A stretch of DNA of 64,000 bases from assembly GCF_013409865.1 (NCBI RefSeq), contig NZ_JACCBM010000001.1, positions 372,001-436,000 of the forward strand, given 5' to 3'. Under the pieces are notes generated by a model that was given only the letters and a program-made list of their open reading frames with translations, was not told the origin of the DNA and did not search any database. Below are positions 3,263-59,197 of the stretch, piece by piece. The translations under genes were made by a program, and so were the position numbers. The stretch is from Herbiconiux flava. GTDB lineage: Bacteria > Actinomycetota > Actinomycetes > Actinomycetales > Microbacteriaceae. Position 1 is the stretch's first letter, and each line of letters begins with the position of its first letter.

Positions 3263-3990
3263 GACGCCACCGCCAGGGCCGGCACCGCGCCCGGGACGAC
3301 AGTGACAGGAGACACGGCAGAGACGGCAGAGCCGAGCGGATGCCCGCCCGCCGCCTCCCGCGGCGACACGAACCGGGCGACCACCGCCCCCACCACCTCG
3401 CGCGGCTCGACCCGGCGGCCGAGCACCTCGCTCAGCGTGGTGACCCCGGCGTCGCGGATGCCGCAGGCGACGATCGCGGCGTACGGCTCGAGCGGGTTGC
3501 TGCAGTTCAGCGCGAAGCCGTGCGTGGTGACGCCCGCGGCGACCCGGATGCCGATGGCGCCGAGCTTGCACTCCAGGCCGTCCACCGTGGTCCAGATGCC
3601 GGAGCGGCCCTCGACGCGATGCGCGTCCACCCCGAGCGACGCGACGACGTCGAGCAGGAGCTGCTCGAGCATCCGCACGTAGGCGACGACGTCGATCGGG
3701 TCGGGCAGGCGCACGATCGGGTAGCCGACGAGCTGGCCGGGGCCGTGCCAGGTGATCTTGCCGCCGCGATCGACGTCGATCACGGGCGTGCCGCCACCGG
3801 CCGCGCCGACCGGCCGCTCGGAGGGCTCGGTGCGCTTGCCGGCGGTGTAGACCGCCTCGTGCTCGAGCAGCACCAGGGTGTCGGGCGCCGCACCGGAGAC
3901 CACCTCGTCGTGGAGCCGGGACTGCAGGGCGAGGCCCTCGGAATAGGGCACGAGCCGCCGGCCGACACCCTCGTTCAGAACATCCGTCAT
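3259..3990 (-). CDS. lipB: Lipoyl(octanoyl) transferase
   Basis: This 243-residue cytoplasmic enzyme transfers octanoyl from acyl-carrier protein to lipoyl domains, the step before LipA. The catalytic pair is visible: Lys142 in [10 protein letters not shown] and Cys163 in [13 protein letters not shown]. Substrate-tunnel motifs [16 protein letters not shown] (76-91) and SGIWT are conserved. A short Gly-rich insertion (GAAGGGTP, about 62-69) sits before the [11 protein letters not shown] block. First gene of the lipB-lipA pair. A TAGGAT -10 box ends 6 nt before the ATG, suggesting a leaderless transcript, and a 15-bp palindrome covers the promoter, so repression is plausible. Confidence 0.97.
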
Positions 3991-8998: not shown

Positions 8999-9041
8999 CC
9001 GTAGCCGCTAATTATGAACAGTTCATAATTAGCGGCTACGG
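8999..9041. promoter_or_regulatory. 43-bp perfect palindrome (Fur-type operator) at the fur-katA promoter
   Basis: Positions 8999-9019 are exactly complementary to 9021-9041 around the single base at 9020. The centre AATTATGAACAGTTCATAATT is AT-rich and resembles a 7-1-7 Fur/PerR box. The outer arms are GC-rich. It overlaps the fur -10 (9003-8998 on the minus strand). Because it also lies 20 bp past the stop of the gene ending at 9062, it could fold as a transcript hairpin as well. Confidence 0.8.
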
Positions 9042-58171: not shown

Positions 58172-59197
58172 ATGTCAGAAGTTCGGGTCGGCGGATACGC
58201 CGACGCTCTGCTCGCTCTGAAGCGGCGCGTCCACGAGGCGCGCTACGAGGTGCAGCGGCACGCGAACACTGCGATGGTGCTGCTCTACTGGGACATCGGC
58301 GCGGTGCTCGCGGAACGAGCCGCGAACGCCGACTGGGGCAGCAAGGTCGTCGAGCGGCTGGCTCGCGACCTGAGCGCCGAGTTCCCCGAGGCCAAGGGGT
58401 TCTCCCACCGGAATCTGCGCTACATGCGGTCGTTCGCCGAAGCCTGGCCCGACCGGGCCTCAATTGTGCAACGCTCCGTTGCACAATTGCCCTGGGGCCA
58501 CATTATCGAGCTCCTGACCCAGTTGACGGGGCCCGACGATCGCGACTGGTACGCCGATCGCGACCTTGAGCACGGCTGGACGAGGTCGGTTCTGGCCCAT
58601 CAGATCTCGACCCGGCTCCGCGACCGAGAGGGGGCCTCTCCGTCCAACTTCGCCACCTCCCTCGAACCCTCGGACTCCGAGCTCGCGCAGCAGATCACGA
58701 AGGATCCCTTCACCCTCGGCTTTCTCGCCATCGACGTCGACACCAGCGAGCGGCAGCTCGAAGACCGCCTCGTGGAGCGGATCATCGACACCCTTCGGGA
58801 ACTCGGCCCGGGGTTCTCCTTCGTCGGGCGACAGGTGCACTTCGAGATCGACGGCGACGACTTCTACGTCGATCTGCTCTTCTTCCACGTCCAGCAGCTG
58901 CGCTACGTCGTCGTCGAGCTCAAGACGACGAAGTTCGACCCACGGCATGCCGGCCAGCTCGGGTTCTACGTCGCACTCGTCGACGATCGACTGCGCGACC
59001 CGGGCAAGCACCAGCCGACGGTGGGCATGCTGCTCGTGAGGGAGAAGAACGAGACCGTGGTGCGGTACGCCCTCGCCGGGGCGAGCCAGCCCCTCGCAGT
59101 GTCGCGGTATGAGCTAGCGCCCGGCGTGCAGGCCTCGCTGCCGAGTGAGGATGCCCTGGTGCGGATCGCAGAGGCCGACAGCGGGCGGAGCCGGTAG
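58172..59197 (+). CDS. DUF1016/YhcG-type PD-(D/E)XK nuclease
   Basis: This 341-residue protein has an N-terminal helical DUF1016 region (YADALLALKRRVHEARYEVQRHANTAMVLLYWDIGAVL to WPDRASIVQRSVAQLPWGHIIELL, about 8-115). The C-terminal nuclease domain has the PD-(D/E)XK core: Asp in FYVDLLFFH and Glu-X-Lys in VVVELKTTKF, then GQLGFYVALVDD. Such proteins are often near type I restriction or other defence genes; here it stands alone. Residues 97-106 (SIVQRSVAQL) are encoded by a perfect inverted repeat that uses rare codons. The composition is slightly lower GC than its neighbours. Confidence 0.92.
   Translation: MSEVRVGGYADALLALKRRVHEARYEVQRHANTAMVLLYWDIGAVLAERAANADWGSKVVERLARDLSAEFPEAKGFSHRNLRYMRSFAEAWPDRASIVQRSVAQLPWGHIIELLTQLTGPDDRDWYADRDLEHGWTRSVLAHQISTRLRDREGASPSNFATSLEPSDSELAQQITKDPFTLGFLAIDVDTSERQLEDRLVERIIDTLRELGPGFSFVGRQVHFEIDGDDFYVDLLFFHVQQLRYVVVELKTTKFDPRHAGQLGFYVALVDDRLRDPGKHQPTVGMLLVREKNETVVRYALAGASQPLAVSRYELAPGVQASLPSEDALVRIAEADSGRSR
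58461..58489. repeat. 13-bp-arm perfect inverted repeat inside the DUF1016 nuclease gene
   Basis: CAATTGTGCAACG (58461-58473) and CGTTGCACAATTG (58477-58489) are complementary around a 3-bp CTC loop. It lies in frame and covers codons 97-106. The arms contain TCA, ATT, CAA, GTT, GCA and TTG codons, which are scarce in this genome. Confidence 0.9.

Follow-up and report, generated by a model that had tools for sequence, protein, structure and literature searches.

Why would a bacterial nuclease gene carry a perfect palindrome inside its own coding sequence? The question is raised by a DUF1016/YhcG gene of Herbiconiux flava, on the plus strand at 58172-59197 of a 64,000-nucleotide stretch of contig NZ_JACCBM010000001.1 (hereafter the window, to which all coordinates refer). 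The gene encodes a 341-aa protein with a ParB-like DNA-binding domain and a PD-(D/E)XK nuclease domain, as assigned from Pfam and AlphaFold2 (AF2) models. At 58461-58489 its open reading frame (ORF) reads CAATTGTGCAACG-CTC-CGTTGCACAATTG, an in-frame, perfect 29-bp palindrome with 13-bp arms, a 3-bp spacer and no assigned strand. Our analysis of the family suggests, with a probability of roughly 70%, that this palindrome is a double-stranded DNA recognition site for the protein encoded by the same gene.

A preliminary description of the locus had reported the perfect in-frame repeat, which we confirm, and had proposed that its arms consist mostly of rare codons chosen at the DNA level. We used as reference 2097 codons from eight coding-sequence pieces around the palindrome, two of which are the remainder of the same gene (GC content at third codon positions, 0.934). 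CAA (0 of 39 Gln codons), TTG (3/210 Leu), GTT (5/184 Val), GCA (15/336 Ala), ATT (5/84 Ile) and TCA (3/128 Ser) are indeed rare nearby, while GTG, CGC and TCC, also within the palindrome stretch, are ordinary codons for these surroundings. When SIVQRSVAQL was recoded synonymously 400,000 times, not even the eight inner pairs of the palindrome arose. Selection of codons at the DNA level is strongly supported. When the 3.85-Mb genome was searched for further copies of the 13-nt arm with up to one mismatch, one forward and one reverse match were found, both corresponding to the 58461-58489 site itself. The own site is thus single in this genome, and it lies in its own gene.

Initially viewed as a peculiarity of one gene, the palindrome turned out to be present in nearly all family members that we examined. 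The first relatives read at the homologous codons, from a search of which the best 80 of 102 were taken, carry palindromes of differing letters, for example at IVQ..VAQL (ATTGTGCAA/TTGCACAAT), IRQ..VGEL and VKQ..VSQ. We then analyzed 300 loci drawn around Actinomycetota, Bacillota, Bacteroidota and Pseudomonadota genomes (inferred phylum labels) and from mixed relatives; these gave 315 ORF hits, 266 distinct proteins of at least 150 aa and 246 genes with usable flanks. The site usually lies in the linker, after the recognition helix and before the next long helix. Across the 246 genes, the mean best linker stem was 9.6 pairs, against 4.25 in synonymous recodings (200 per gene, drawn with the codon usage of the gene itself) and 4.30 in segments of equal length from other parts of these genes. 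The linker stem reached p ≤ 0.05 in 90% of genes, at most one of 200 recodings equaled the real value in 78%, and the linker outscored every other tested segment of its own gene in 80%. Besides the H. flava gene, stems of at least 7 were found in 75 of 77 mixed relatives, 7/7 genes from the genus, 5/5 from E. coli, 15/17 from Actinomycetota, 17/23 further copies in 20 genomes, 9/11 from Bacillota, 66/76 from Bacteroidota and 29/29 from Pseudomonadota. The palindrome is centered on the first base of a codon in 219 of these 224 genes, the other five having an even loop. Among the 22 genes with shorter stems, 13 have a core site with seven of eight pairs (10 in the linker, three near residue 63), some of which may be chance since such palindromes occur elsewhere in these genes at 0.74 per kb; the remaining nine have no countable site. 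The site can also lie around residue 63 (seven genes) or 163 (three genes), adjoin the start or stop codon, or occur in tandem copies; four of the genes with a site at residue 63 or 163 (L132, L216, L251 and L255) have a weak one in the linker. One DUF1016 gene (L260, from the Fibrobacter sp. genome of L071) carries four tandem in-frame linker palindromes.

We further investigated at which level the palindrome is constrained. The pairing, tree and coupling analyses used 193 distinct arms from genes with a stem of at least 7, and the pairing percentages are therefore conditional on having a palindrome. With pairs numbered k outwards from the center and k=2 to 9 forming two 8-bp half-sites, Watson-Crick pairing reached 86, 94, 97, 99, 97, 98, 97 and 87%, against 39, 34, 39, 73, 48, 41, 50 and 46% expected from composition. 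Further out, at k=10 to 15, it was 71, 79, 72, 81, 38 and 33%, against an expected 66, 72, 64, 79, 33 and 28%. The spacer is R-N-Y in 179 of the 193 arms, a class that is unchanged under reverse complement. On a tree built from proteins without the linker, 212 changes at k=3 to 9 led from one Watson-Crick pair to another, against 39 one-sided changes, and 45 changes turned a pair into a mismatch; at k=10 to 13, one-sided changes dominated (118 against 26 two-sided). Two-sided differences climb from about 0.6 to 5 as divergence increases, whereas one-sided ones remain at about 0.2-0.7. In H. flava, the co-varying part is a 19-bp core at 58466-58484 (half-site GTGCAACG, spacer CTC, half-site CGTTGCAC; no assigned strand), a putative binding site for the gene's own protein as judged from pairing, double changes and residue-base coupling. 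Family-wide co-variation is confined to the inner pairs 58466-58473 / 58477-58484, and the outer AATT shows none. As far as comparison of sequences can tell, the family palindrome is constrained as DNA.

Could the arms instead form a hairpin in the mRNA that regulates translation of the nuclease or decay of its message, as had also been proposed? A stem of 8-13 bp closed by a 3-nt loop would be able to fold, and RNA stems too are marked by co-variation. However, where codon 3 encodes Gln, its codon and the paired second base of codon 6 combine as CAA/T in 78 genes, CAA/C in none, CAG/T in two and CAG/C in 33. CAG thus stands opposite T in only 2 of 80 genes, although CAG in place of CAA opposite U would be tolerated by a stem in mRNA. 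Codons therefore do not vary freely among homologs, as they would if the earlier proposal of selection at the DNA level were wrong. Likewise, the non-Watson-Crick cells among 2123 at k=2 to 12 comprise 29 G.U, 47 A.C and 161 others. As wobble shows no advantage over A.C mismatches, we rejected the RNA hairpin as the main explanation; related sites outside coding sequence and the coupling of arm bases with residues of the DNA-binding domain, both described below, also argue against it, and it appears very unlikely.

What would read such a site? The N-terminal DUF1016_N domain (PF17761, residues 16-151; 58217-58624, plus strand) is a remote relative of the ParB/Noc DNA-binding domain. Aligned with the ParB helix-turn-helix (HTH) profile by hhalign, the profile of the 246 genes gave a probability of 90.2 (E = 1.5e-6) and only 50.5 when a 41-sequence alignment was used; 60 column shuffles scored at most 22.8, against 40.4 for the real profile. 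The predicted fold of the domain is also similar to that of the ParB/Noc DNA-binding domain. Pfam lists HTH_ParB in two of nine scanned homologs (L275, 23.5 bits with a cut-off of 22.6, and L113, 21.9 bits) and does not list it for the H. flava protein at E ≤ 0.001. Foldseek alone gave no match for the N-domain at E ≤ 0.001, a PDB sequence search gave none at 0.001, and the best hit of a profile search had E = 0.91. The domain has been described as mainly helical with no confident match to known structures, in the accessible part of that report (PMC1189080). Profile alignment and shared motifs equate residues 109 and 79 of DUF1016 with ParB residues 201 and 173, which read base 6 and base 1 of the parS/NBS (Noc-binding site) half-site, respectively, according to PMC7383237; the parS-contacting N178 and R204 are the counterparts of residues 84 and 112 in the alignment.

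We then looked for coupling between 308 protein columns, linker columns excluded, and the eight half-site bases. The ten strongest couplings all lie in the HTH domain (80-k7, 138-k3, 109-k3, 139-k2, 109-k2, 60-k8, 112-k4, 83-k9, 84-k5 and 138-k2, at an effective number of sequences, Neff, of 71), as do the first eight under stronger down-weighting (Neff 13). In the H. flava protein, the residues concerned map on the plus strand to the recognition-helix region (residues 76-92, with H79, R80, R83 and Y84; 58397-58447), which couples with bases k=5 to 9; to G109-I112 (58496-58507), aligned with ParB G201-R204 and its contacts as given in PMC7383237, which couple with k=2 to 4; and to R138 and S139 (58583-58588), which couple with k=2 and k=3. 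Identities track closely: R80 occurs with G in 101 of 103 genes and A80 with C in 17/19, Y84 with A in 99/102 and R84 with C in 20/22, R139 with C in 73/74 and N139 with A in 40/55, G109 with C in 42/43 and Y109 with G in 23/23, R112 with C in 40/43, and K83 with G in 62/65. These tables look like a recognition code, as far as co-occurrence can suggest one. Of two proteins that are 88% identical (L243 and L246), one has L84 with A at k5 and the other R84 with C at k5; their sites differ at k6 too.

Co-change along the tree pointed to the same domain: the best nine of 2456 tests all involve HTH residues (p from 2.9e-11 to 2.2e-5), in a test that is somewhat anti-conservative since the best C-terminal column reaches 2.9e-5. 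If the innermost half-site bases are equated, the 109-k3 pair (p = 2.9e-11) corresponds to the ParB/Noc contact of residue 201 with base 6 and, more weakly, 79-k8 (p = 4.3e-5) to that of residue 173 with base 1. Bases were also predicted from residues, chosen on the same data, in left-out clusters of 60% identity. Accuracies (baseline in brackets) were 0.86 (0.62) for k2, 0.90 (0.36) for k3 from residues 138 and 109, 0.62 (0.42) for k4, 0.85 (0.67) for k5, 0.52 (0.49) for k6, 0.72 (0.42) for k7, 0.76 (0.56) for k8 and 0.65 (0.49) for k9. With broader clusters, k3, k5 and k7 keep a clear gain, whereas k4 drops below baseline at both broader levels, k8 does so at 50% and k9 at 45%. Computation thus supports the view that the site and the residues that would read it changed together across the family, and on this co-variation we favor binding of a dyad palindrome by DUF1016_N. 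The self-binding site, one of the earlier proposals, is favored by the ParB-like profile and residue-base coupling taken together.

Sites with the same core also occur outside the linker. One with perfect 13-bp arms lies just before a start codon (L010), others just after a stop codon (E. coli and L092), and others between the two domains (L193 and L223, the core being identical in L223). In E. coli K-12, yhcG contains three tandem palindromes spaced at 39 bp, of which the first and second each leave one of eight positions unpaired; a fourth palindrome follows directly after the stop codon. The E. coli site list was selected by its CAGAC core, so that invariance at k=2 to 6 is by construction. 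Among 5426 E. coli genomes, 4417 have a yhcG match (3310 covering at least 80%), and, with a permissive cut-off, the 43-nt palindrome downstream is matched in 5329 (in 4613 over at least 80%). The downstream site has the same arms in L105 and L383 as in L099 and L103, with centers agt or act, which are reverse complements, as if the center had been inverted. A single intragenic palindrome is found in the alleles of L104, annotated as frameshifted, and of L105, which is in frame; tandem sites seem to come and go by deletion. In three strains (L100, L101 and L102), yhcG is broken inside the third palindrome; a small annotated transposase gene comes next in two of them and IS1 in the other, and it may be that insertions favor palindromes. 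Beyond gltD, L102 carries one more palindrome.

A palindrome lying in a tolerant loop might also have no function, its arms being kept identical by template switching during replication. This would account for exact pairing, for the lack of wobble bias and for paired changes without selection, and inversion of the center would yield the agt and act spacers found between the same arms in E. coli. It predicts neither the coupling of HTH residues with bases, nor same-core sites elsewhere in the locus, nor sites at residue 63 or 163 (including those of the four weak-linker genes), and we regard it as most improbable. Recognition by the encoded protein is the best explanation, and computation supports exact dyad conservation, a ParB-like fold and profile, and residue-base co-variation.

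Are such sites dispersed in genomes? A 27-nt pattern with two mismatches gave 52 forward hits in 34 genomes, against 10 hits in five genomes for a reversed-pattern control. By coordinate comparison, 34 of the 52 lie in or beside DUF1016 matches and 18 elsewhere; the 11 of 16 Herbiconiux genomes that were searched with this pattern show zero to two such away-hits. Four away-hits that we read, all from Herbiconiux, comprise one followed by a remnant-like CCGTGG, two intergenic inverted repeat-like sequences and one in overlapping ORFs. Copies of own arms numbered 15, against four for swapped arms, and include tandem linker copies and at least three non-palindromes. Dispersal like that of repetitive extragenic palindromes (REPs) was dropped, given the single place of the H. 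flava site and the few hits away from DUF1016. An orphan inverted repeat with a CAACA-TGTTG core and arms of about 22 bp was seen in L332 (G006:C4, palindrome at 3593), in a genome where a protein search found no DUF1016 gene. Four genes have palindromes of the form GTCCCACA-ggc-TGTGGGAC close to their start; these were rejected as own sites, as they do not match the cores of the genes concerned, and they may be terminators.

How would a nuclease use a site in its own gene? With DUF1016_N as a ParB/Noc-like HTH domain, each of two copies would read one 8-bp half-site, in the manner of ParB on parS, and almost all examined family members hold a version of the site within the reading frame of the gene. 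The DUF1016 protein very probably binds its own site in the cell. It is about an even chance that such binding mainly blocks or loops transcription of the gene, which would keep a dangerous nuclease scarce and make the gene a portable, self-regulated unit: with an operator within its coding sequence, a mobile gene, as the matching plasmid records noted below suggest this one to be, could be self-regulated wherever it landed.

The site may instead be a parS-like loading or tethering point, marking the locus or holding the enzyme inactive. The ParB-like domain and the single H. flava site, in its own gene, fit this idea, and nucleation of ParB at parS, as described in the part of PMC7333895 consulted, offers a precedent. 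Against it, the H. flava protein matches only DUF1016_N and YhcG_C in Pfam and has no match to the CTP-binding domain of ParB (CTP-binding motif and ParA partner were not specifically searched). We consider a loading point unlikely.

The palindrome could also be the nuclease's own cleavage target, conditional cutting of its gene, of related copies or of neighboring sites leading to homing-like spread, copy control or self-destruction. The YhcG_C nuclease domain (PF06250, residues 173-315; 58688-59116, plus strand) contains D234, E249 and K251; in a 60-sequence alignment, the catalytic D234 and K251 are invariant and E249 nearly so, and the PD-(D/E)XK triplet is retained in 211 of the 246 family genes. 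In two E. coli strains without yhcG at the locus, CGCCAGAC-agt-GTCTGGCG is found in the gltD-nanQ spacer and is identical to the first of the intragenic sites in several yhcG-carrying strains, which is no more than suggestive of homing; an empty Herbiconiux site (G003) also has an inverted repeat at the insertion point, unrelated to the palindrome. However, the gene itself, which the enzyme would then cut, keeps a perfect site, and six ORFs that encode the N-domain, with no nuclease ORF detected in the fetched sequence, retain stems of 7-13 (L108, L113, L115, L199, L226 and L275), though two further N-domain-only ORFs, L173 and L196, have stems of 4 and 5. Cleavage is thus a possible but doubtful role. 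Returning to recognition by the encoded protein, we can only tentatively picture a self-addressed nuclease gene whose one strong cellular target lies in its own coding sequence, serving as a switch, an anchor, an antidote (the nuclease being bound while the gene is present), or a cut site driving spread to places that share the palindrome, the E. coli gltD-nanQ spacer among them.

The H. flava protein scores 137.9 bits for DUF1016_N (cut-off 32.8) and 163.4 bits for YhcG_C (cut-off 32.5), and the domain arrangement of its full-length AF2 model is uncertain given a pTM (predicted template-modeling score) of 0.51. A 94% identical gene occurs in L003. The gene is flanked by genes for an FMN oxidoreductase and a DUF808 protein; consistent with the earlier remark that no restriction system stands beside it, none of eight neighbor proteins scanned matches a restriction family, two of them being without any match. 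Gene neighborhoods were surveyed in the window, at the E. coli locus and within the genus. Two other perfect palindromes with a 3-nt loop and arms of at least 9 occur in the window, at 9020 and 39346. The first (9003-9037) is AT-rich, with 16-bp arms (AGCCGCTAATTATGAA-CAG-...), and lies upstream of a minus-strand ORF that we take to be a Fur-type regulator, followed by a presumably catalase-like ORF; it looks like an ordinary operator. The second is GC-rich with 10-bp arms. Elsewhere, DUF1016_N is present in 122 of 296 genomes drawn around a Chlorobiaceae genome (G215) and in 52 of 299 drawn around a Legionella genome, and 467 plasmid records match the H. flava protein; six stretches of viral contigs matched a pattern, none of them encoding a relative. 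Four genomes (G665, G764, G775 and G693) have 13-14 DUF1016_N matches each, a possible setting for orthogonal specificities.

These results provide a concrete functional hypothesis for a common protein family of unknown role, in an apparently family-wide case of coding sequence that both encodes a protein and displays the site that this protein is proposed to bind, amino-acid changes being linked to the pairing of bases. With every gene carrying a site of its own, sequence would show how a ParB-like domain co-evolves with its DNA and switches specificity. If this is true, every sequenced gene offers one protein-site pair, a natural recognition code with thousands of examples.

Several known systems invite comparison. 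A parS site of B. subtilis is located within spo0J, and the PurR site in purB is an intragenic operator, illustrating that a protein bound within coding sequence can block transcription; in DUF1016 genes, by contrast, the proposed binder is the gene's own product and the site accompanies a protein family. In REPtrons, genes for RAYT transposases, which are HUH enzymes, are associated with cognate REP palindromes that are dispersed. DUF1016 resembles them as a nuclease gene accompanied by its own palindromes, whereas the H. flava site is single and intragenic. Rickettsia palindromic elements also lie in frame in protein genes, yet they measure about 100-150 nt and are inserted at many places, as stated in the part of PMC4316617 that we drew on, while DUF1016 palindromes span 19-29 bp, are tied to one family and co-vary with it. 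The likeness to ParB-parS and Noc-NBS (KorB-like HTH family) comprises the fold and profile of the DNA-binding domain, a dyad palindrome with half-sites of about 8 bp (the consensus in PMC7383237), and the correspondence of 109-k3 and, more weakly, 79-k8 to the contacts of residues 201 and 173. Unlike parS, the DUF1016 site has a 3-bp spacer between half-sites, lies in frame in nearly every examined member and differs widely in sequence between members, and the protein carries a PD-(D/E)XK nuclease domain in place of the other ParB domains. Among 22 ParB loci (those of 30 fetched that have a GHA[RK]A[LI] motif), the parS consensus is present in three and lies inside the stop-to-stop parB ORF in one, a count that does not inform the comparison. 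The H. flava gene itself is a member of the YhcG family (PF17761 and PF06250), in the class that PADLOC lists as candidate family PDC-S02. A literature search, mostly at title level and outside subscription papers, found no report linking DUF1016 with ParB or placing a palindrome in a DUF1016 gene, and the accessible parts of PMC4316617, PMC1189080 and PMC1913061 describe neither such a palindrome nor a ParB-like DUF1016 domain. Altogether, the kind of interaction is known from ParB-parS and from intragenic operators, while its family-wide embedding in the gene of the presumed binder, with co-variation of the two, appears to be new.
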